A stretch of 64,000 bases of DNA from Mesodorylaimus sp. YZB2_4 (lineage: Eukaryota > Nematoda > Enoplea > Dorylaimida > Dorylaimidae), in NCBI GenBank assembly GCA_030248295.1, contig JASANH010001202.1, positions 1-64,000 on the forward strand, given 5' to 3'. Below, in pieces: positions 3,698 to 60,179 of this stretch. Within the stretch, counting starts at the first letter, position 1. Every line of letters starts with the position of its first letter. Position numbers and translations under genes: made by a program. The notes beneath the pieces were generated by a model. It was not told the origin of the DNA. It was given only the letters and a program-made list of their open reading frames with translations, and made no database searches.

Positions 3698-3821
3698 TAG
3701 TTCAATTCAATTTTTATTCTGTGAAAAATTAGCCAGCGATACAAAAAAGGTTTTTGCAGCATTCCACAAAAAAGATTATTTTACAAAATTCGAAAACAAA
3801 AGTTAGAAAAAATTTGAATCC

Positions 3822-3987
3822 GGCCTCGTGGCCTGGCGGGTTAGGCGTCTGCCTCTCACGCCAGGTGCGCAGTTACGGGCGAGTGTTCGACTCGCGGGCC
3901 GGTAAATCATTTCGTGTAAAATATGTCCCTTCACCCTCAAGTGCGCATAAGCGTTTGGTGATGTGGAAGAACAGGAACAGGAACATT
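3822..3987 (+). repeat. tRNA-derived SINE, copy 1
   Basis: Starts with a tRNA-like head: box-A-like sequence GTGGCCTGGCGGGTTAGGCG, CTGCCTCTCACGCC in the anticodon-arm position, and a box B (GTTCGACTC). A non-tRNA body follows (GGTAAATCAT, ATGTCCCTTCACCCT, GCGTTTGGTGATGTGG) and a short repeated tail of AACAGG units. Two more copies share the same order of blocks at 37390-37550 (+) and 33270-33429 (-), so this is a dispersed family. Confidence 0.75.
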
Positions 3988-14832: not shown

Positions 14833-14904
14833 GGGGTCGTAGCTCAGTGGTAGAGCGCCCGCTTCGCATGCGGGATGCCGCCGGTTCAATCCCGGCCGGC
14901 TCCA
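14833..14904 (+). tRNA. tRNA-Ala (anticodon CGC)
   Basis: A full cloverleaf can be drawn. The acceptor is GGGGTCG pairing with CGGCTCC (two G-U pairs), then TA, a D-arm with AGCTCAGTGGTAGAGC (box A), the anticodon stem CCCGC/GCGGG around TTCGCAT (anticodon CGC, codon GCG), and a T-arm GCCGG-TTCAATC-CCGGC (box B). The discriminator base is A and there is no intron. The TAGCTCAGTGGTAGAGCG block is typical of eukaryotic tRNA-Ala. Confidence 0.92.
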
Positions 14905-29989: not shown

Positions 29990-32263
29990 CTAATGCGACA
30001 ACGGATCAATTTTAGACGGATCGATATGCGCTTTGCGCAAGAAATAGAAATAGCGGGGTACGTAGAAAAATACATGAAAGAAACTAATGAGTGACATACC
30101 CCAGTAAAAGCCTACTATATTACCGAAATCGCAAAGAGCCAAGTAGAGGGACCATTCCTTGACTTCATTGTTCTCCCGATAGCCCAGATCAGCGTAATAG
30201 ACGTGTATCTTGCTGAACATGTCGTCCGCACGCATTTCTTTTCCAGGTTTATCCAAGTAGAAGAAACTGCACATGCTTGAGTATGTCCATCGGGCGCAAT
30301 GCTTGGGCAGGTTCGACTTGATCGAAATTTTAGATATCCATTGTTTCATGGCGTTGTCATACATTTCTGGAGCCTGAAGCAAAGAATATGTTAGCAGTAG
30401 AGTTATTCTCAGGATAAAAGAGACCTCACTTTTGCTCGAAAAGATTTTGCCATATCCTCGAAATCGATTGCGACAGCCGCTGACAAGACGTAGGAAAGGT
30501 AGGGATCACACACAAGACTGATGTTTGGTCGATAGAGGTGGCCAGGGGGGTAACAAGAATGGTATTGATGCAGGAGGGGCAGCAAGCTCTCGTACAAGCC
30601 ACTATACCCCGCTGGATCGGGGTAAAATCCTTCAATTAGTTGCTCTCTCAGATGTCCGTGCGGCATGCAATCAGTTGTGGCCTCTCGCTTAGCCGGCGTC
30701 ACCCTTATGAAAGTCTCCGCTTCATCTGGGGCCACCATGGGGGATTGAAACACGGTGTATGGAGTTGGGTCAACGAAAACTTTAAACCCATTATCAGCAT
30801 CGTCGTCCAGCATTGGAAAGTCCACCACGGACATTGCTGCTTCTACTGATAGTCCACCGGATGGTGCTGATCTGCGCTGATGAAATGTCCCTTCTGATGG
30901 AAAGGCGTTGTCGCTGTCGAAATTTAGCTGAAAAAGCAGATTGACAGTATGCCTACATAGGTATTTTACGTGTAGCGGCAGCCGCATGACTTATCAGTAC
31001 CTAACTCCGCGGCAAACGCTCACTACTGTATACTGCATATAGCTATGCTGTTCTGATATTCTATGCTACTGGGTCTGACCCTGGAAATAGGTTTCCGCAT
31101 ATGAAAGGCTCATAGGATTTGAACAGCTCCTGCTTATTTTGCATATATCCCATTTCCAAAGGTGAAATAATCCATGGAGCCTGTGCTCCTGTGCAGTGCG
31201 CCCATCGATAGGCACAAGTGGGATTCAACCTGTCAGGTTGATGTTTCACCAGTCTTAGGCTACTAGAAGTCAAAGCCAGGGCAAGCTGCTGCTTGTGTGT
31301 GAGTGTGCGAGTAAGTTTAATACGGAGTGCGTATGCTCCACCGGGCATTACCTGCGTCACTCCTAGGAAATTGTCCTGGGTGTCGGGAAGCCTAGACTGG
31401 GGAGTCGATTACCCGGCGGACGGAGATGTGTGCGAGTTAAAGCTAGTTGAAGATATGACTTGGTTCAGGCACTATCTTTCGTCACTCATTTCATTTCTAT
31501 ACTGTGCATAAAAGCTAATATACCCACTATGCGGACAATCATACCCCCCTCCCCTCCCCCTTCTCCACGAAACAAGTGAGGATTCATGACAGCTCATCAG
31601 TGCACTCGGCCCCGTTGAGACCCTTACCATGATGACGTAACATATTCCATCGTCATCGATCGATTGAACCGCATGCGCACAGCAATCGAATTCTATTCCA
31701 TCAAATGTGCACTTTTTGAGCATGTTCTCGCACGGAGAGAAGGCTGCTTCCGCAAACGCAGAGAAATCGAATAACTCTGGTGTTTCTCGAGTGATCATCC
31801 GGAAAAACTTGAGGAACATTTGATCGCTAAGACTTCGTGGTCGCATGGCGGGAGCCAGACCAAGAGTCAGTTGGTGGTACAGGTCGTCCTCGGTCCTGCC
31901 AGTCTTGTCTTTGAAACTTTGTAGCGTTTTGGGAGTAATATTGATACGATCTCTGACAAAGGTTTCATTGAAGAAGACTTCAGCGCATATGGTCACGTTT
32001 GAGAAGGGGATTGTGCCGGCGTTTGGTATATCGTTGAATTCATCTTTGTATCCGTCAATGTGGGCTTGGGTATAAATCACGCTTTTGTAAATGTAGAGGA
32101 GGCAAAAGCAGGATAATATGAGCAGGGCTATTTTGAACAGATGGCTGATCCAGGTTATCTTCTCTCCAAACGCCTCCTGCCATCCAGCCACGCTGATTCT
32201 GTTGACCAGGTCGTTATGAGCTAACGCAAGTGGCTTCTCTTCGTGGCCGTTGTCTGAGATCAT
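29990..32263 (-). CDS. DEG/ENaC (ASIC-type) sodium channel subunit
   Basis: Three phase-0 exons, 32263-31628, 30927-30430 and 30373-29990, give a complete 505-residue protein. TM1 is about residues 42-61. The post-TM1 motif IPFSNVTIC matches family FPAVTIC, a Cys-containing extracellular domain follows (GICYVIM at the first junction, matching family GxCYxF), then TM2 with DFGNIVGFYWGMSLISFF. The GMS inside it corresponds to the G/S-x-S selectivity filter. In the N-terminal tail the gating His-Gly pair of the family is Ala26-Gly27 (RISVAGW). The family forms trimeric amiloride-sensitive Na+ channels gated by peptides, acid or mechanical force; the stimulus cannot be read here. The first intron carries a copy of the hairpin repeat. 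Confidence 0.88.
31195..31265 (+). repeat. Hairpin-chain repeat, single partial unit
   Basis: ATCGATA lies in a loop closed by GTGC/GCAC (31196-31215), followed by TCAACCT-GTC-AGGTTGA (31225-31241) and TGTTTCA. These match the order of the first two hairpins in the copies at 46, 51 and 57 kb. It lies in the first intron of the DEG/ENaC gene. Confidence 0.6.
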
Positions 32264-37200: not shown

Positions 37201-38221
37201 CGACGCGACTCATTGGAAAAGTTGGATCTTTCGAGCCATGTCTACTTTTAGACGATCTCGGCGGCCATGGATGTCTAAGGGCTGAATTGTACAATGTTCC
37301 AAATGGCACCATGGAAGTGATACAACTGCCCAATGCTCGAAATAAGACCGAGATTCGGCTCGGAGGTAAGTGATAGTGGTAGTCATCGGGGCTCTTGGCC
37401 CGGTGAGTTAGGCGTCTGCCTCTCACGCAAAGTGCGCAGTTACGGACGAGATCGATTCGCGGCCTGGTAAATCATGTGTAATGTGTCCCTCAACCCTAGA
37501 GTGCGCTGTTACGCGTTTGGTGAGGTGGTAAAACAGTATTAGGACAGGACCAGTGATAGTGTCACCAGCTTACATAGGCACTGAACTTCTAGTTGAGTCG
37601 CTTCATTTTATCCGTTATACACTCCTCGGTGCGGCTTTTCTGTTAGCACCTATGAGCATACAGTAGGGATTATCCATTTTCTACTCTGGTGGCAGTCAAA
37701 TCTAGATTGGTATCATGAGCTGATTGCTTGACACTCCAATTAGTGTAACAGGGAAACAAGGGTTCGTGCGATTGTCTCACCATATTCAGACAATCGTGCA
37801 ACCGACCCTCAATTTTTGTTTTTGATGCGCATGAGACTCCTGATATTGGGTTGCAACGCAATAGGGAGTGTTAAATTCCTAATCGGATGGCTCGTTAGAC
37901 GTCGACGACCAAGGCCCCCTTGCCGTGTTTTATGCTTTCACTAACATCTTCTCTTGACATTCAGGCATCACTGCTGATCTAAGGTCGCTCTCTATGGAAT
38001 GCCGTTCCATACACGTAGCTGAACATGTGGCGTCCGTTTTCGGGCTGGCACTTCTGTTCAATTTGTGTCAAGGCCTTCGCGACCCTCGATCTACAGTCGG
38101 CCACTCAAATGAGAATACAAGCAACTGGCCACTGCTGATTGCAAGTGGCACGAACAAGAGTGAAAGTCATGCAAGAAAAGATACAAGGTCACGCCTGCCT
38201 GATGAATTTGCTGATTTGTGA
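34237..38221 (+). CDS. Glycine-rich-domain (DUF1399/GRDP) family protein
   Basis: Eight exons fit by phase: 34237-34428, 34492-34968, 35810-35945, about 36019-36119, 36170-36792, 36854-37122, 37222-37365, 37965-38221; about 732 aa. The N-terminal half is DUF1399: VDLLTAIRNEWEFL, AIRRYEQCWLPIL, LDVYFIWHTHMLSP (the family's W-H-x-H signature), then a second block LLWPPYDVQLAWRGHL. The C-terminal half (exons 5-8) has no domain I can name; it reads as beta-rich, ending in a hydrophobic segment (HVASVFGLALLFNLC) and a Ser-rich tail. Family members occur in plants, fungi and some invertebrates; plant ones are linked to stress responses, and animal function is unknown. The start of exon 4 is uncertain (36019, 36040 or 36061 keep phase). 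The exon 4 donor (GTGGTA) is weak. An intronic SINE sits at 37390. Confidence 0.78.
37390..37550 (+). repeat. tRNA-derived SINE, copy 3
   Basis: GAGTTAGGCGTCTGCCTCTC, GTGCGCAGTTACGG, GATTCGCGGCCTGGTAAATC, GTCCCTCAACCCT and GCGTTTGGTGAGGTGG match the copy at 3822 block for block. It is inserted in the last intron of the DUF1399 gene in the sense orientation. Confidence 0.75.
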
Positions 38222-45649: not shown

Positions 45650-47637
45650 CTGATCGATACCAGATAACGAGTTGTTGACATGCTGGTCGCCCCTTTTTGT
45701 AAGTAATGCAAACATACAGTATGCAGAAACTGTACTTGTAAATCTTTTGCTTCGAAGTGAGCATTGATTTCTGGCAGGACCAAAGCACACAAGCCCAGCT
45801 CCCATTACCAAGCTTGAGCTGCTACGCGCTTCCTGACGAGTGCTCGACTCTCGTCAGGGTAAAACATTTTAGAGTCATGCGACGCCTCACCATCGAGTGC
45901 GCTATCTGCCTTCGTTGCGGGAGACGAACAACATACTCGTAGTATCAAACCAGACGACCAACCGGTGGCTTTAGAGTCCACCCTGAATTTGGTCGCTCTT
46001 TCCTAATGCTCGAAAGCACAGACTGACCTACGAACCAAATCCGCACAACAGTCCATGTTAGCCCGCTAACCTTTCCAGCAAAGCCAAACGCAGCTTTGAT
46101 ACGTTCCACCGATGAAATGGGTGACCGTCGGTCGAGCTGCGAACATCTTTACAGAAGCTGCTGTAACCCCTACCAGGCAGGCCATGGCGAGTGGTAGAGA
46201 GTCGGAGTTTTTATCTCGCCTACTTCGGTTGGCCGCACTCTCTCCCGCGCCTGTCTGCACAAGTTCATTGGCGTCACGAACTCGGGGCCCGTCCGCGGAG
46301 GCGTAAGTCCCCGTCGAACCGCTGGTTGCGCCCATGTTCGTCGGAGTCCTGGCGTTTTGTGCTAACACCCAGACTCGCCGGCTAGCCTACTAGGTCAGGT
46401 ACAGTCGTGAGACTTGCCTACTTCCAGTCGGAGTTTTTGTCCCGCCGACTTCGGTCGGCCGCACTCTCTCCCACGCCTGTCTGCACAGGTTGCACTACTC
46501 TACAGATGCTTTAGCGTGCAAAATACCGACGAATTTCAAAAAACTTGTAGAATCACCAGCCAAATCCTATTCGCCCCAGAGCCACTGAACAGGAATCTCA
46601 TATTCGCCATAAGCGGCAAGTGAATTCATCGATACACACTCCGCATATTAGGCCCCTATCCCTCACTTCTATAAACCTCGAACATGCGCTCCGACTGCAA
46701 TAGCCCGATGCACTTCGATATGGATCAACGATATTAGACTTTCTGCAGCATTCCCTACTGTACTATCGAGCAGCTGTTGTATCTGATCCGATCCAACAAA
46801 CCCCCATTCGGTCCAGAGATGACTTTTAAAAAAGGGAAAACAAGGGGGTTCTCAAACAGTATCTTTTCCCATCACTTACGCAAATGAAGAGGTCTTTGAC
46901 GGAAGACGTTTCAAGGTGCTGGCTCCGTGCAATTGCGCTGCATTCGAATAGCGACGATGAGGATACAGATAGGACGGATGACGGAAAATTTACAGCACAT
47001 GTACGTATGTGCTTGACCTTAGCTCTGGTCGTAGGCTGCGTAGGGAAAAATCGAAGTTTGTGCCGAGGCCATGAGCTTGATCCATAGAAAAGGATCTGCA
47101 GAACGCCCAAGTTTTTTCTTTCTACTCACGTCAGATTTTTGTAATCTGCTCTACATCCACGTACTTACAGACGTTTATTGTAGCAAACTTGACGCTAAGA
47201 AAGTGCTTCGAGCTTTCGACACCTCTAACAAGCATCACAAGACAGAGTCATTTCAGACCAATCATATGGCGTGTCCTAGACTTGCGTCCCATGTGACAGG
47301 TTCTCCATTCAAATAGCAAAACAAGGCTCAGGATGTTAGCACCTAGCGTGGGGTCGACTCTGTATCACCGTCGTGATGCGTTTTAGTCCGTCTGCGTGTG
47401 TATTTGAGCTAATGACTTCGCCATGCTGAGGTCAATCACGAGGAGCAAATATGACGGCTGCACGGGACAGGTTTTACGATTCTTGCGATGGCTAATAATG
47501 GTTATGTGACCTCATTACATACGCTACCTACTGTATATAAGTAAGTCAGTCTCTTCAGAAGGCTCGCCAGTTTCGAGCGATATTCAAACTTGGCTACGAT
47601 CAAGCCTAAGCTGGTTCTGTTTTTCGACGCTTCAACA
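45650..47637. other. Intergenic; holds hairpin repeats
   Basis: The only structured content is the hairpin-chain repeat at 46150-46500. No coding homology was seen. Confidence 0.45.
46150..46500 (+). repeat. Hairpin-chain repeat, two truncated units
   Basis: Unit 1 has GTCGGAG plus T5 (46201-46212) and GCCTAC-TTCG-GTTGGC (46218-46233), then the GGCGTCACGAAC module (46270) with GTAAGTCCCCGTCGAACCG. Unit 2 has AGGTACAGTC-GTGA-GACTTGCCT (46397-46419), TTCCAGTCGGAG plus T5 (46422-46438) and GCCGAC-TTCG-GTCGGC (46444-46459). Confidence 0.65.
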
Positions 47638-50211: not shown

Positions 50212-53200
50212 ATCAATTTTTTTGGAATAATTTTTAAAAAAAATTTTTTTTTTTTTTTATCTTTTTTATTTTTTTCTTTTTTTATATTTTTTTCAATTAT
50301 TAATTTTATTTCATTTTTTATTGTCTTTCGTTAATTTCCTAATCTAACAAATTCACGAGAGGCGGCTCTGCAAAATAATCCTGGAACATGCGCGGTGACA
50401 GAATGCACCTGATTCGTTTAGTCAAAACTGTCATCCTCCTCCGCAGTGCATCCCACAAGTCCACTATCTTGTCTTCATCCTCAAAGTCAGCCCTCGCATA
50501 CCATATGCACCGTTGTGCTGACTGCAAAATCATGTTTGCAAAGCAGGCGATATGCTTGCGATGTAGGCCGGTGATACCAAAAATCTTATTTCATCCCTTA
50601 GAATTATTGATGGGTCAACTTTCTTCAACAGAAACTCCACTTTTTCCCAGAATTTGCGTGTCCTCGGGCACTGCACGAAAACGTGGTACACATCCTCGTG
50701 CTTATCTATTCCGTGCTTCTTACAGTACTTGCAGTGTGAATCAACCTCCATCCGCTCCCCGCGGTATCTTCTCCAATATAGGGCTATTCCGTCTATTACA
50801 TTTGGCGTCACGGACCTTGGGGCCATCCATAGTGGTGTAAGTCCCCGCCGAACCGCTGGGTGCACCCATGTTCGTCACGGTCTAGGGCGTTTAGACCAAC
50901 ACTGGCACGGCCGGCCCAACCAGCTGGACCCAGTACCGTCTGTACTGCGGAGGCAATGTGAGGTCGGTCCTTTGGGAGGGGGAGGTCTTCCTTCCGGGAA
51001 GAGCGAGAGCGACGGGGTCGTCGCTTCTTCTGTCGATGGGAGGAATGTAACCCTCATGCGAGTGGGAGAGAGTAATCGATACTCTCCCCTGGCTGGGAGA
51101 CGTCAACCCCTCGGGTTGATGTTTCAGCCTTAGGTATAGTCGCAAGACTATCCTGCTCCAGATGGAGTTTTTGCGGGCCACGGGACCCTCTGTAGAGGCT
51201 CGACTGACAATCGATAGCGTCACCCGTCAGGGTGACGTTTCAGCCATGTACTAGGTCGGAGGACTTAGTAGGCTGCCCTGGGTTTTTGGCGTGGTGCAAA
51301 AGCTCCACCGGTCACTCCCTCCAGTAATACGGACCCAGTCGTAATACACCTCCTACGCCTACTAGGACTGGTTACAATTGCTAGCGTAGCTTTACCCGCC
51401 TTCTTTTCCATCATGTGCTCATACAGCAGCTTGGTCTTTACGTGTTTGATCGGATATGTTCTTGTATTCAATCCAACAGTGCCTTGATCCAACAAGCTGA
51501 ATTTGGCTGTCTTCACAGCCCTGCGTATATCCCTGCACAGCTGAGGCACCATTATGCTGTCCAATTGGTTCAGGCTCGCATATCGCACTCTCCCATAGAA
51601 AAAATCAAAGCACGCACCCCACGCAGCATCCTGCTGTGCAGTCAGCCTACGTAGAAGAAGCATCAATCTGAAAGCTAGCACCTTGGTATTCACGTCTGGA
51701 TAGTTAACACCTCCGAGGTCTCTGCCTCGTTTTAAAATCAATTTATTCACCATGTTCGATTTCGAAGGATGCCAAGAAATATGCATCCACATGTTTCTCA
51801 ACATATCTCTGGAAATCAGCATCCGGCGCAACAATCGATGCTAAGTACCACGCTTTGGATAGAAAATAGATGCTTTGGACATGGACTCTCCCAAAATATG
51901 ATATCTCACTGTAGGACTCCTACTATTTAAGGTCCCTATATGGTCTCTTGCAGCTGCCCAGTTATCCGCTATCTCCATGCCAGTGCTGCGAATCCAAAAT
52001 CCATTTAACTGCTGGACCAAATACTTTGACAGATCCTCCTCCATCCCTGTCCTGTTCGCTGCTGTCGCGCCTAGTGGTAACATTTTGATTTTTGCCTCTT
52101 TCAGCGTGGCACCCGAGGCGTTCCTGAATGTTTTGTACACTTCAAAAATGCGTTTTTATAGAGGCAGTATCCGCCACCAAAAAGTTGGTATCATCAGCAA
52201 AGTTGCTGTTATTTAGCTCCCGTCCTAGTATGCCTAATCCTTTTACAGCTGTGTCCTTCCTCATGAAATTTGTGACTGTCTCTGAGAAGGGGAAGTACAA
52301 TAAGGCCGACAAAGGGCACCCCCGCCGGATTCCTCTGCTTGGATTAAAGGGTGATGAGATGTAGCCATTCACCTGCACCGCTGATGAGACCTTCCCTGGT
52401 TTATAGATCAGTCGAATCCAGCTTTGAAAGACTGGTCCTAGCCCAAAGTATTCGAGTACTCTATTCATGTAATCCCATTCGACTATGTCAAAGGCTACCA
52501 TATGGTTCACAGAAAGAAGCATGCCTTCCGCCCCAGTCTCACTGATGTACTCTACAGCATTGTAGAGGGTCAAGACCCCGTCTCTTATGTCTCTTCCAGG
52601 CACCGAGCAGGTCTGGTCCGGATGGACCACCTTGCCCATCACTTTCCTTAGTCTCGTGACCAGCACTTTCGCCAGAATCTTATAGTCCACATTTAACATT
52701 GTCAGTAACCGCCAGTTAGACCTTTCCGCCTTATCCCCTTCCCCCTCGTACAGTTGAGAAATTATGCCAGAATAGCAGCTGGGAGGGAGGACGCCTAACC
52801 TTGATGGGGTCCCGTAGACCTTACTAAGTATCCATCCCACGTCAGCCGAGAACAGACTGTAAAACTCGATTGGCAGGCCGTCACTGCCAGGCGACTTCTT
52901 CTTTTTAATGTGCGCATCGCAGTCCGTATTTCATCTTCGTCAATCTCATTGCCTAGTTCCTCCGTGTCTTGGTCATCAGCTAAGCAATAAGGAGACTGTC
53001 CCAAGAAGAGATCAGCAGCCTCCCCGTCAATTGCTCCTGTACTGGTAAACAGATGCGCGTACTGCCTTCTTATTTCCTGTATGACTTCCAGGTGGTCTTC
53101 GTACAAGGTCCCATCCTCCCCGCGGATCGCATAAATTGTCCTACTCTCAGCCGAGTTTTTCTGCATTAACTTGGCCATTGTTAATGTAAACTGGTCAGTT

Positions 53201-54860: not shown

Positions 54861-57198
54861 ATAACAGAGAAAAAAAGGAAAACGACCTATGTACTGTAGC
54901 TTGGTGCCGAGGCTCAGAAGCTAACATAACTTACAGTGTTTGGTGTCGCCTGACGTTTGGCCGAATCAGTGTCCGCGTTCTCGCTCGTTCCGTCGTCGCT
55001 CAATCTTCTTTTCTTCTCGTTCACATACTTCCTGCGCGCAAAAAATTAAAATTTGAGCATGATTTTGTGATGTTTGTACTCAGAATAACCTTTTGAATAA
55101 AGTTACTGATACAAAATATCCTCTTTTTTAAATTCTTGGTTGGCCAGAAAATCGAGATCCTGCACTGCACTACTCGTCACTCTCAACTCAGCAGCATGAC
55201 TGACTTGTTTTTCATAGTGAGCAACCAAGGGTTCTCATTTTCAGGCTGATTGGGGCACTTCGCTGTTCTAATTTGCCGCCGCACAATGATGTTCCTCCCC
55301 CTGAACAATAACACAACCCAAGGACTCTGTGGAGTGTCTTTATTGATCCCAGCCTACGCCAATGTATTTTTATCTTATCATATGACTATTCCGTCTTGTT
55401 GCTTACTTGACTGGTTGAATGAGACAAACATGAATCTATCCACGTCCCGTGTCACTCGAGGGGATATAAGGTACTTATTAGGAGCTGCGGTGACGGGAAG
55501 TGCCACTGGGGTTCAGTCACGTAGCTGAAATATGTACCTTATTATTTTGTTATCCCTATGCTTTATAACGACGCTGTGCGTTCTTCATGTTATTCATGGA
55601 AAAAATCTAAAGTGAGTGGCTCCTAGTTTGCTGACATTATCAGTCATATATTTGCAATTTCTAGAAACTTAATTCAAAATTCAACGGCTCATCCTATGGA
55701 TGATACAACTGCAAGCAGTCGGTTTGTTCAAAAGATACTGACGATCAGCGATAGCAATGATAAGATTAAAAGCTTCAGACTGTTACGTGCTCGTGCAAAG
55801 AGCAATAATTTTGTTAATTGTTATTTCAGTCCAGTTCAGTGTGTTATGTAGGATTATTGAGGACTTGACGCTGCACCTCCCGCTTCATTCGAAGCTTACT
55901 AATGAGGGCATGGAATATTTTCCGGTGTGCCGCAAAGATTACTACAGTACTTAAAGGATGCGTTTTTTCGCTTGCTTATGTTTGTGGCTCTCTACTGTGT
56001 GCTACTGGACCAGCACTGGAAGCAGCAGTCAGCTCTGTGTGATTAGAATACTAAATATCCGAATGTTGGCCTATCTACAGTAGAATACTGTAAGCCCTCA
56101 GAAGCGCCTATATTTAGCAAGGTTCGAAGTGTCCTCGACCAGTTTTGAAGCCGATCCACGACATGCCAGCATTTCCCTCGCTGAACACTCACGATCGGAG
56201 GCACCCTTAAGATAGGATGGAATGGTGTGGCAAGCTGAAGAGAAATGGACCCACCGCCGTTGAGGGCTTTGCACAAAGTTTTGCTCATCAAAGCGAAAGT
56301 GGAGACCCTTCTTTTGGGTGTACTGTACATCTAGTCCAGTATTCGATCACGGTCTAGAAGCGTTTATCTCGGCTGAATGAGTCTATTCAATCGTGCTTAT
56401 ATGACCAAGCCCTTGACGTCTTTCCGATGAGCACGTCGACCCATGTAATTTGGAGAAAACATTCGCCTCGCGTGTGGTGCAGTAATTAGGGATGCTGATG
56501 CTTAGTCGCTCTGAACGTGCAAAATACAACACTGGGGACACCGATGCTTTTCATACTGGGTCAAAGGAGACAGCAACACCAATAAAGACAGAAAGATCTA
56601 TCAGCATGGGATGTCTAATTAGGATGGCACGTGCTATGGTAGTAATGCTCACCACAGACGCTGTGCAGACGCCCGCTCACCACGGACGCAGACGCTGTGC
56701 CAAGGCATACAGTAAATCCAAAAGATACCTGATAAAGCGAACAGCCTATCGGGACAAAGTCAATACGTGATTTCGACCCTCGGGGCTGCAGTCGAGCCCT
56801 TGTTTATGTTCTCGTGTAATGACGACAATCTATCTCAGCCGATCACAGAGCGACAGTTCTGCCGCACCTAGTCATTCGGTACGGTAACAAAAGTGAAGAG
56901 GTCAGGTCACGCGAAAAGAGCGGGTGATGACGACAGTCCATCTCAACCAATGACTTGTCATTCAGCATATCGGTTTCAGGTGAGAATGTGAGGATTCGAG
57001 CCCTCTTGCCGTCAGACTTATCAAAAGCTACACTTCGGTGAGCGTGGCCTTCGGCGCGACTACTCGCGACCAAAAGACATCAAAGCTGGGCACACCACAC
57101 TACACCGCACACACTAGCGCAGTATGCCTACACGAGCACCACCTTCGACTCATGTCTGAGCACTACACATCCATCTCCAGCATTCTAGCACCCGCATA
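54861..57198. other. No gene recognised between LINE and mariner
   Basis: The frames at 55250-55528, 55757-55954 and 56492-56770 (+) carry no domain or consistent splicing. A short direct duplication around ACGCTGTGC occurs at 56650-56700. Confidence 0.4.
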
Positions 57199-59264
57199 CG
57201 AGGGGAGTTCAAAAAGTTTGTGGCCTGACCACATTTGAATTGGAACTGTAAAATGCCATGCTTATTCATTATCGACATAACATCCCCTGAGCCCAATGCT
57301 CTTGTTTAAACTTTTATGCAAGGCGTGCATACCCGTAAAAAGAAATACAACTCACACCTGTGACCAGCACGCCTGGCGGTCGGGAGTAATCGATACGCTC
57401 CCCTGGCTGGGACGTCAACCTCTTCGGTTGATGTTTCTAGGTCAGGTATAGTCGCGAGACTTGCCTACCTCCAGTCGGAGTTTTTTGCTTAGAGACTTCG
57501 GTCTCGACTATCTCCCGCCGCCTGGGTGCGCTGGTTACACACCCCTCGAAAAACGCTTCAGTCGCTGGTTACTTCCTCCACAAAAACTCCCCAAAAACTT
57601 CACCCCCCGCCGCCTGGGTGCGCTGGTTACACTGGCGTCACGAACCAAAGGGCCTTCTTCGGATGTAAGCCCCTTATGGACTAGTATGCTAGCCCGGGTG
57701 GTTGTGGTGAATGCCGGACTGGCGCGCCTGCGCTTGCTGTGGCCCGGGGTTCCCTGCAGGTGTACTTCCTACCAGACTCCGGTCTGGGTTGCCTCCACTG
57801 AGGCACCAGGGGCCAGCGGGCGAAACCTACTCCGCTATTACCTACGGGGAGGAGACGGTTCGGCGAGCGTTTGGTGCGCCTTAGCGCGACGGTGGGTGGA
57901 ACACCTAGCGCTGATAAGGCTGGGGCGCACTGGGGTGTTGGTTCTCCCAGTTGGAGAATGGCGGGGACGCCATTTTTCCAACGGTTAGAGGAATGTGACC
58001 AGCACGCCTGGCGGTCGCGAGTAATCGATACGCTCCCCTGGCTGGGACGTCAACCTCTTCGGTTGATGTTTCTAGAGCAGGTATAGTCGCGAGACTTGCC
58101 TACGTTCAGTCGGAGATTTTTGCATAGAGACTTCGGTCTCGACTATCTCCCGCCGCCTGGGTGCGCTGGTTACACACCCCTCGAAGAACGCTTCAGTCGC
58201 TGGTTTTACTTCCTCGTCACTTAAAAATCTGTCCCCTCATAAACTTTCTTTGGATTTTCCGAGTAGGTAGTAATCGCTGGGTGGCAGGCCTGGACTGTAT
58301 GGTGGATGATCAGTTTGTTTAAGTCCTCGTTCATCGATGGCAGCCTGAGCAACGCGCGCTTTGTGTCAATCAGGAGCAGCACCTTCTTTTTTCAACATCC
58401 CGCGCCGTTTCGATTTGATCTCTTCACGCAATCGGCGGATAATATCAGCAAAATTTTGCCCAGTGATTGTGGTCTTGGCTGGCATATAAATCAATACTCA
58501 ACACTCCATTGCAATCCGAAAAAGTTGTTGCCATGACCTCGCCCAATGACTGCTGAACGCGAAATTTTTTGGCGGATGTGCACCCTTTAGCAGCCACTGT
58601 ATCGATTCGTGTTTTGACTCAGATCAAAGTGGTGAGTCCTAGCTTCATCATCGATAACCTTTCTTTCATAAAAATCATCTGGATCAGCCGCGATCCTTGC
58701 CAAAAGCTCCTTTGAACTCAAACAGCTCTTCGCACGTTTGCCAGGTCTTTTGGCACACATCTCGCGCAGGCCCAAATAAATTCAACTTCTGCAAAATTGT
58801 TTCGACGCTACTCACTGAAATGCTCACTTTCTCCGCTATATAGACAGCGTTTGTTCGAATGTCTTCTATAACAATCTTTGCCACAACATCGCATTTGTTG
58901 GCCAGTGTCCACACCTCATCAGCGTCCATCAGTGTCCACCAGTGAGCAAAGCAGATCATATTTTTACTGACGGCAATTTAGGTGCCTCATTGCCATACAC
59001 CAAGGCCATCCGATCGCTAATTTCTGTCGGCTTCAAGCCTTCTTTTCTTAAAACTTGATGACAGACTGATTCGCAAAATTTGTCAAATTTGTAATTTCTC
59101 TGACCAACTTCCAAAAAGATGACCATATCTAAAACAAGCACGAATGGATCAGCGTGATTTTTTGTAGGGATTCTGGTAAGATGTGTGGCAGTGTAAAATA
59201 CAAATTTGACTGCTGCAGCTCATGCGGAAGGTACTCAGGCTACGAACTTTTTGAACTCCCTCCG
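57199..59264 (-). mobile_element. mariner-type DNA transposon, decayed, with nested insertion
   Basis: The left end CGAGGGGAGTTCAAAAAG (57199) and the right end CTTTTTGAACTCCCTCCG (ending 59264) are inverted repeats of about 30 bp (right inner part ACTCAGGCTACGAA against left TTTGTGGCCTGA), each bordered by TA (57197-57198 and 59265-59266), the mariner target duplication. On the minus strand a transposase relic runs from about 59140 to 58240: HQVLRKEGLKPTEISDRM (HTH region), SVSSVETILQKLNLF, a degenerate DDFYER block, DCNGVLSIDLYASQ and a poor HxDNAPAH equivalent. Stops and frame changes are numerous. Removing the hairpin-chain insertion at 57359-58215 leaves about 1.2 kb, the normal mariner size. 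Confidence 0.87.
57359..58215 (+). repeat. Hairpin-chain repeat, 635-bp unit plus partial second unit
   Basis: A direct repeat of about 215 bp starts at 57359 and again near 57994 (shared: TGTGACCAGCACGCCTGGCG, TAATCGATACGCTCCCCTGG, AACCTCTTCGGTTGATG, GACTTCGGTCTCGACTATCT, GGGTGCGCTGGTTACACACC). Within each: GACC...GGTC (57362-57381), GGGAG/CTCCC around AATCGATA (57382-57402), TCAACC-TCTTC-GGTTGA (57415-57431), AGGTATAGTC-GCGA-GACTTGCCT (57444-57466), CTCC-AGTC-GGAG (57469-57480) plus T6, and GAGAC-TTCG-GTCTC (57492-57505). The 420 bp between them is also hairpin-rich (TGCCTC-CACT-GAGGCA, TTCTCC-CAGTT-GGAGAA, TGGCG-GGGA-CGCCA). No ORF explains it. It interrupts the mariner. Confidence 0.8.
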
Positions 59265-60179
59265 TAGCTTCGCCACGCCGCACATACAATGCAGCACAGT
59301 AGCATCATTTAGGAAAGACTTTACGAGGTCAACTGAGAATTCAAAAGCAGAAGACATCCAGTCTGAACGACGATTCAAAAAATTTCGCGCCAAAATTCAA
59401 ATCGCACTCTCCTTATCACGTTCCAGCCATGCCTGTTTTTTGGTCTTTTTGGTACAAGAAAGTCACTCGCAACAGTCAACAGAAAATTTCTCAACCTAAA
59501 TCTGCCCAGAACGATCTTATGATGTTCGTTGTGTCTTGTTTCTTAGCTAAGAGAGCACCTCGCAGAACCGAAAAATGTCCTGTGTAACCAAGTCAGGCCG
59601 GCATTGACGTCATAAGTTACGGGCACGTGCCAGAAAGCGAGAATATTAATCGATTTCTTTCAGCGACAACAAGGTTGCTAAGCAGCATGAAAAAGAAATT
59701 GATGGCTCCAGAGGATTGTTTGATAGATGCTAAGTGACATTGAAGAAAGGAAAAGTTAATTTTTCAAGTTCGTTCACTTATGAACTCTTCAAAATATGAC
59801 GTCATCTACCTTTGTACAAGGCTTCTTTGCTAGGCAAAAATCGTGAAGAACTTTTTCAAAGAGGATCCATTTTTAGAAGCTTTTAAATAATGTTACGAAG
59901 ATGTATAAAGCTGAGAATAAGCCAGTGCATGGTCAGTAGTGGGACGGTCGGTGGACAAGAACACCTGCTTGATCTTACGAAGACATACGGCTATTGAGCG
60001 TGGCCCATATTGGACCAGCAGCCATGTCTGTTCAGCAGTATCATCCATTTGCGGCGACGCAACGTGGCAGTGCGAGTTTTACCAAGTACGTTTCCGCTCC
60101 TGCTGGACATCGGGGCCCGAAATAAGCCTTCATTTTTATTAGACAACCTCAGGTCAGCTGCTTTGATCGATGTGCTGCC
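59265..60179. other. Spacer, no gene recognised
   Basis: Open frame 59206-59499 overlaps the mariner end and has no domain. Otherwise non-coding by inspection. Confidence 0.4.

Follow-up and report, generated by a model that had tools for sequence, protein, structure and literature searches.

TRIMs, which are non-autonomous miniature LTR retrotransposons, include the ta-TRIM of taeniid cestodes, described as a short, non-coding element with the arrangement LTR-internal region-LTR, TG...CA ends, duplications of 4-5 bp, a tRNA primer-binding site (PBS), a polypurine tract (PPT), and many dispersed copies (PMC4558846). The same account suggests that TRIM RNA is selected through a packaging signal of which the structure alone is conserved, and according to a second source it is not known what the dependence rests on (PMC10886601). 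PbTRIM of the harvester ant is another TRIM (PMC3532108), and because the transposable element annotation of the nematode Meloidogyne incognita also lists TRIMs (PMC8685519), the presence of a TRIM in a host resembling a nematode is in itself no novelty. The available portions of the literature on nematode TRIMs and mermithid LTR elements yielded none like the element described here. The LTRs of Cassandra, Helenus, and Ajax are derived from 5S or tRNA sequences (PMC10886601), and Cassandra RNA is reported to contain a conserved super-hairpin, with the element also forming tandem arrays (PMC7215508). Plant retrozymes carry a hammerhead in LTRs of 300-400 bp and combine 4-bp duplications, a PBS, and a PPT with a non-coding centre of 300-600 bp (PMC4918200).

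The window, by which we mean the entire 64,000-nt stretch of DNA that was analysed, contains at positions 57359-58174 an element that is, by its sequence organization, a TRIM, here termed family A. An earlier note on this DNA had described the locus as a dispersed repeat made of a chain of RNA-like hairpins, and this hairpin chain is the LTR of the TRIM. The assignment is based on the order LTR-internal region-LTR, TG...CA ends, 4-bp duplications, a tRNA-type PBS, a PPT, the lack of recognisable coding capacity, and the occurrence of dispersed, near-identical copies. In these respects the element resembles ta-TRIM, from which it differs in its apparent primer, a Ser-type tRNA rather than the Leu tRNA given for ta-TRIM in that account (PMC4558846). 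It is set apart from the TRIMs named above by an LTR that is predicted to form a strongly folded RNA over its whole length, with stems kept through paired changes.

Organization of the element and its relatives

The family-A element of the window lies on the forward strand between two copies of a 4-bp target-site duplication, CACC (57355-57358 and 58175-58178). Its 5′ LTR (57359-57539) is 181 nt long, reads TGTGACC...GGTTACA, and is predicted to form a closed, branched RNA; the 3′ LTR occupies 57994-58174. The two LTRs differ at 7 of 181 positions, and the units 57359-57570 and 57994-58205 are direct repeats with 96% identity over 212 nt. Between the 5′ LTR and the internal region this copy carries a 92-nt insertion (57540-57631) in which about 40 nt duplicated from the right flank and some filler precede a 26-nt LTR tail, with self-comparison of the window placing the tail copy at 57606-57632 (27 nt). 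The LTR start-to-start spacing is 635 in this copy versus 543 in most of the fetched family-A copies with two LTRs. The internal region (57632-57993, 362 nt) contains the PBS, TGGCGTCACGAACC (57633-57646), 1 nt past the LTR end (here, with the copy rearranged, past the LTR tail), and terminates with the PPT AGAGGAA (57987-57993). The only ORF of more than 120 aa in this element, at 57461-57988 and overlapping the internal region, has no Pfam match. A 39-nt inverted repeat (57197-57235 and 59228-59266; 82% complementary, 1992 nt apart) encloses the TRIM; its arms look like the termini of a mariner-like DNA transposon, into which the TRIM would have inserted.

The genome (145 Mb, 1067 contigs) was searched with portions of this element, with 40 candidates scored per search, such that a count of 40 is a lower bound. 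A query spanning 57359-57640 produced at least 40 matches of 95-100% identity that begin at the first base of the LTR, 37 of which end at query nucleotides 181-184, plus one short match. The internal stretch 57633-57993 likewise gave at least 40 matches, at 89-100% identity. The repeat is therefore dispersed and has a natural end near nucleotide 181, and its dispersal, as the earlier note had proposed, is evident both from these matches and from related units in the window.

Copies of family A and of a second family, B, were fetched with about 1.5 kb of flank, whereas families C and D are known from the window plus stray units. Near-full-length LTRs with at least 88% identity that were distinct by their flanks numbered 68 for family A and 44 for family B, and the two families are approximately 82% identical in the core. 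A full family-A copy has the plan LTR (181 nt), 1 nt, TGGCGTCACGAACC, internal sequence ending in GGGAGGAA, and LTR (181 nt), with 362 nt between LTRs in 16 of 22 paired elements and 328-364 in the remainder. Family B follows the same plan with a 197-nt LTR (TGTAACC...GGTTACA), a PBS that is mostly TGGCGTCACGGACC, and 221-250 nt between LTRs. At lengths of about 724 nt for family A and 633 nt for family B, the elements fall within the TRIM size range, which is under 4 kb and typically 0.5-1 kb, without gag or pol.

The boundaries of these elements are well preserved. All 68 near-full-length family-A LTRs start with TGTG and end with CA; all 43 of family B start with TGTA, and 40 end with TACA, one with CACA, and two with a dinucleotide other than CA. 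A 4-bp target duplication flanks every paired full element (22/22 A, 18/18 B), as well as 12 of 14 family-A LTRs classed as solo, among which the first LTR of the window is counted because of its insertion, and 0 of 1 in family B. The motif TGGCGTCACGAAC follows 28 of 28 family-A 5′ LTRs, although part of this motif also served to call a 5′ LTR; similarly, GGGAGGAA is present at 46 of 50 3′ LTRs (23/26 A, 23/24 B), with AGGAA having also served to call a 3′ LTR. One family-A element lies within a family-B-like LTR, where CAAG is duplicated (L013:1374-2325), and this A element thus jumped later than that B-like copy. Some copies form tandem units, with three B-type LTRs at approximately 604-nt spacing in one array (L090:354-1744, the same array as L088) and four D-type units at 406-407 nt spacing in another (G000:C798:15357-16651). 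A satellite or tandem repeat was rejected as the primary nature of the family, given the scattered distribution of copies bordered by target duplications and the small number of tandem arrays. Because the LTR ends pair, long terminal inverted repeats of a DNA transposon were also considered, an identity rejected in view of the two direct LTRs, PBS, and PPT found between 4-bp duplications.

Using a Ser tRNA pattern, we located a tRNA gene starting GTCACGATGTCCGAGTGGTTAAGG that has four genome occurrences with one mismatch to the pattern and three more with 2-3 mismatches; the reversed control pattern gave one match. The PBS core GTCACGA is identical to the 5′ acceptor strand of this Ser-type tRNA gene, the comparison being made at the 5′ end of the tRNA. 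Within the PBS, read as TGG-C-GTCACGA, the C would presumably face the G discriminator base of tRNA-Ser. Judged by this identity, the TRIM has a tRNA-type PBS, and its primer appears to be a Ser-type tRNA.

BLAST comparison within the window revealed related units at 51070-51172 (83%) and 46390-46495 (79%), together with a short match at 31225 (E 0.03). The first belongs to a family-B relative (50803-51173, forward strand) with a PBS at 50803, a PPT at 51038, and an LTR that extends from 51046 to the T-run and leaves family B after 51173; its 5′ LTR was not recognised. A divergent unit, B2 (51180-51376, forward), retains AATCGATA, GCGTCACCC/GGGTGACGTT, a GGAG-capped hairpin, and a T-run in unchanged order and ends with GGTTACA, its score being weak (9.2 bits, E 0.17). 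The family-C relative (46162-46494, forward) comprises a 5′ LTR with an internal deletion, a PBS at 46269, a short internal region, and a 5′-truncated 3′ LTR, between flanks CTGC and CTAC (3/4 matching). A family-D relative (31193-31300, forward), also weak (8.5 bits, E 0.27), has only the ATCGAT and TCAACCT/AGGTTGA hairpins. Approximately 100 nt past the PBS are common to the C copy (46268-46368) and the B copy (50802-50902) at 74% identity; this stretch includes GTAAGTCCCC, which is similar to a splice donor. When B- and C-type copies are folded as single sequences, a GTTCGTC located downstream forms pairs with the PBS region. Near the B-type copy, on the reverse strand, is a reverse transcriptase fragment (52142-52840; RVT_1, E 2.4e-17).

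Elsewhere, the window has protein-domain matches to an Sre-type chemoreceptor, an ASC channel, an AMOP domain, a rhodopsin-type GPCR, and an angiotensin-converting-enzyme domain, with glutamate-receptor domains matching below the curated cut-off. One GPCR gave six matches, in which the two named proteins are a Romanomermis GPCR and a fish protein. Together with the Sre-type match, the Romanomermis protein suggests an animal host, probably a nematode. A 66-nt repeat (3818-3883 and 37385-37450, 86% identity) looks like the head of a tRNA-derived SINE. A tRNA gene at 14833-14904 (forward) was identified by ARAGORN as tRNA-Ala with anticodon cgc.

Predicted fold of the LTR and covariation

The order of hairpins given in the earlier note is found in the two window units. 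In the 5′ LTR, H1 (57382-57402) has a GGGAG/CTCCC stem and an apical loop with AUCGAU. H2 (57409-57437), noted as TCAACC/GGTTGA, is a stem of about 12 bp, GGGACGTCAACC/GGTTGATGTTTC, that includes G-U pairs; the TGTTTC previously listed as a separate motif after this hairpin is instead the 3′ half of the same stem. H3 (57444-57466) has a GNRA cap (GCGA), H4 comprises a CTCC/GGAG hairpin (57469-57480) with a T6 run directly after it (57481-57486), and H5 (57492-57505) is a TTCG-capped stem, GAGAC/GTCTC. The three GNRA caps reported earlier are likewise present, with GCGA in family A, GCAA in family B, and GTGA in the unit at 46390 ff., whereas H3 of the divergent LTR L083 has the loop GUAAAA, which is not GNRA. 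The AUCGAU hexamer, which is self-complementary and followed by A, is present in the H1 loop of nine of the nine sequences used for arm re-dealing (below), all of which were located by that motif. An altered H1 loop is seen in three relics detected by covariance model in flanking sequence (two in L020, one in L067), which may simply have decayed.

The family-A LTR has a predicted folding energy of -95.9 kcal/mol compared with -60.8 ± 4.0 for shuffled sequences (sense z -8.5 to -8.8, antisense z -5.9), and the family-B LTR reaches -104.0 kcal/mol (sense z -8.3, antisense z -7.0). For L083 the energy is -75.3 kcal/mol (sense z -4.4, antisense z -2.4), and for a diverged B copy the strands are hardly apart, at -95.9 kcal/mol sense (z -6.4) and -93.6 antisense (z -6.3). 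The L038 unit gave z -3.7 sense and -2.1 antisense, whereas the fold of the D unit does not go beyond shuffles (z -1.3). Internal regions have sense z values of -1.4 (A) and -2.2 (B) and antisense values of -3.1 (A) and -2.1 (B). As LTRs fold far below shuffles and at least 40 genome matches start at the first base, the hairpin chain is not a chance feature. The antisense strand is less stable in four of four LTRs from three (sub)families, and G-U pairs, which the opposite strand would turn into A-C mismatches, number 11, 6, and 8 in three of the sense folds; these observations argue for RNA rather than a DNA cruciform.

In the predicted folds of A, B, and L083, the two LTR ends pair and close the ring of hairpins. 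Thus, where the earlier note had seen a hairpin chain alone, the 181-nt LTR is predicted to be one closed, branched structure. The 5′ arm of H1 has two alternative partners, namely the 3′ arm of the same hairpin and the LTR's far end, and the minimum free energy (MFE) fold of family A, in which the arm is joined to the far end, contains no H1. Forced folds of two A copies gave -91.1 and -86.4 kcal/mol with H1 versus -95.9 and -93.3 with the far-end pairing, compared with -104.9 versus -101.8 for B and -75.3 versus -73.2 for L083. Folding energies therefore favour far-end pairing in A and H1 in B and L083, by margins too small to decide.

Covariation was assessed in an alignment of 17 core sequences with a hand-set structure, the rows being picked from 27 distinct cores, two with moved ends; those left out include one with an insertion (L033:325-483). 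With a mean column identity of 84%, 91.4% of cells pair, compared with 87.6% in shuffled alignments (reached by 0 of 500) and 37-48% with slid partners, and the covariation score is 0.131 versus 0.081 (again 0 of 500). Pairs changed on both sides number three, which is not above shuffles (322 of 500 reach it), as the rows are essentially two families that dominate the alignment. A single-alignment consensus from MAFFT and RNAalifold is poor, with an energy of -26.3, which we attribute to the closing arms, whose letters do not align.

A less alignment-dependent comparison was made by swapping 5′ and 3′ arms among (sub)families in 2000 re-deals. Ten rows were set up, which are not independent in that B2 and L038 are alike. 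Nine were kept for H1 (family C being without the loop) and seven for H2, which C lacks and which the search pattern missed in L033a and L033r, although L033a shows such a hairpin. Re-dealt arms were at least as stable as the original arms in 14 of 2000 deals for H1 and 3 of 2000 for H2. The closing arms gave 104 of 2000 (four rows, for which the least possible is approximately 83), and the H5 arms, at 179 of 2000 (four rows), are weak by this measure. P1, the outermost 7 bp, exhibits no covariation, with re-dealt arms matching in 1498 of 2000 deals (four rows), and is an ordinary short terminal inverted repeat of LTRs. A separate set of 25 hairpins includes several that are clearly not LTR hairpins. 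Stem differences on both sides, which the earlier note had emphasized, are indeed observed, as with GAGAC/GTCTC in A and GCCGAC/GTCGGC in B for H5, and TCAACCT/AGGTTGA in the D relative. There is moderate support, from comparison of few sub-families, for selection on a folded RNA in H1 and H2 and, probably, in the stem that closes the LTR. The covariation on which the earlier note had staked its proposal is therefore borne out by the re-dealing of H1 and H2 arms but not by the count of both-sided changes, and its suggestion that the repeat is under selection as a folded RNA, or derives from one, holds in direction, although it missed the LTR identity conveyed by the TG...CA ends, 4-bp duplications, PBS, and PPT of the TRIM.

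Possible roles of the folded LTR

The explanation we judge best, with a probability slightly above even, is that the TRIM is mobilised in trans and that its folded LTR and PBS region represent a 5′ leader recognised for packaging by an autonomous partner. The TRIM would be transcribed, and its RNA would be packaged and reverse-transcribed by proteins of a putative autonomous LTR retrotransposon, whose Gag or reverse transcriptase would recognise the folded LTR and PBS region as occurs with a retroviral leader. The 5′ leaders of retroviruses contain a palindromic-loop hairpin and GNRA-type tetraloop hairpins, with the PBS alongside, as dimerisation and packaging signals. MMTV provides an example of such signals (PMC8096270). 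By analogy, the hairpin features and nearby PBS are shared, although here they lie within the LTR of a non-coding element and their role is a predicted one. The AUCGAU loop of H1 may start RNA dimerisation through loop-loop kissing, a proposal that has modest support, and, more speculatively, pairing of the H1 5′ arm with the 3′ end of the LTR might switch exposure of the loop. The approximately 100 nt past the PBS that are common to families B and C are as expected of a leader. A normal LTR transcript splits the LTR, with R-U5 at its start and U3-R at its end. The end-closing fold would consequently be intact only if transcription starts near the first base of the LTR or in read-through RNA, and this counts against the leader reading.

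An unlikely but still credible alternative is that the LTR originated from a small-RNA gene with a Pol III unit, as in a TRIMp3-like element, with the fold being that of a non-coding RNA and the T-run after the GC hairpin serving as terminator. The motifs AATAAA, ATTAAA, AATGAA, and TATAAA are absent from all 68 A and 43 B LTRs, and exactly one run of at least four T residues is present in 65 of 68 A and 42 of 43 B LTRs, directly after the hairpin in 61 of 68 and 38 of 43. This pattern is consistent both with termination by Pol III and with a Pol II unit of an unusual kind. The unit ends pair as in a small RNA, and there are Pol III precedents in Cassandra, Helenus, and Ajax (PMC10886601, PMC7215508). 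As in those miniature elements, the LTR is small-RNA-like, and its terminator-like T-run is comparable to the terminator in the Cassandra LTR; unlike theirs, it shows no 5S or tRNA similarity in Rfam and ARAGORN searches and no Pol III promoter recognisable by eye, with no convincing box A or box B. In Rfam, no known RNA was matched in the LTR, either with the whole window at gathering thresholds or with the A and B elements up to E 10, where only snoRNA and sRNA matches at chance level appeared, in agreement with the earlier failure to recognise the family. A 5S-derived LTR (as in Cassandra and Ajax) has no support, there being no Rfam 5S match, and neither has a tRNA-like LTR (as in Helenus), because ARAGORN places the only tRNA of the window outside the element. 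Furthermore, a second T run, of five residues, is located within the internal region of the window's A element (57973).

We consider it rather improbable that the hairpins are functionless as RNA, having merely come down from an autonomous Ty3/Gypsy-like parent through its LTR or serving as DNA-level promoter sites (e.g., the AATCGATA box). The letters are conserved as well as the stems, both in the 17 cores (84% mean column identity) and between A and B (about 82% in the core), and both-sided changes do not exceed shuffles, as this explanation would have it. However, H1 and H2 arms pair better within than between sub-families, and it is the sense strand that folds further beyond shuffles, with use of G-U pairs.

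Somewhat more doubtful is the reading that the LTR holds a functional RNA of undescribed type, be it a ribozyme with self-cleaving or circularising activity or a two-state switch for dimerisation, with H1 and the closing stem competing for one arm, that would have radiated into many TRIM families. Least probable, and in our view very unlikely, is a retrozyme-like element with an undescribed self-cleaving ribozyme in its LTR and a unit-length circular RNA as its mobile form: 4-bp duplications, a PBS, a PPT, folded RNA in the LTR, and a non-coding centre within a non-autonomous build are common to plant retrozymes (PMC4918200), single-unit tandem arrays occur (spacing 406-407 in C798, 604 in L088/L090), and unpaired letters are conserved, but the LTR is about half as long and without a hammerhead, neither the A nor the B element has a hammerhead or other ribozyme match in Rfam up to E=10, tandem LTR arrays are also known from Cassandra, for which recombination was proposed (PMC7215508), and LTR-internal-LTR copies between duplications dominate the fetched sample.

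Should the LTR contain a functional RNA of its own, these TRIM families would in effect be RNA replicators that use host tRNA-Ser and a stolen reverse transcriptase. Under the preferred explanation, in which the folded LTR and PBS region form a leader for packaging in trans, a whole-LTR folded RNA with a candidate dimerisation loop beside the PBS would provide a cis-signal that is small and testable. Another kind of structured LTR would then stand beside those derived from tRNA or 5S sequences and those of the hammerhead-bearing retrozymes.
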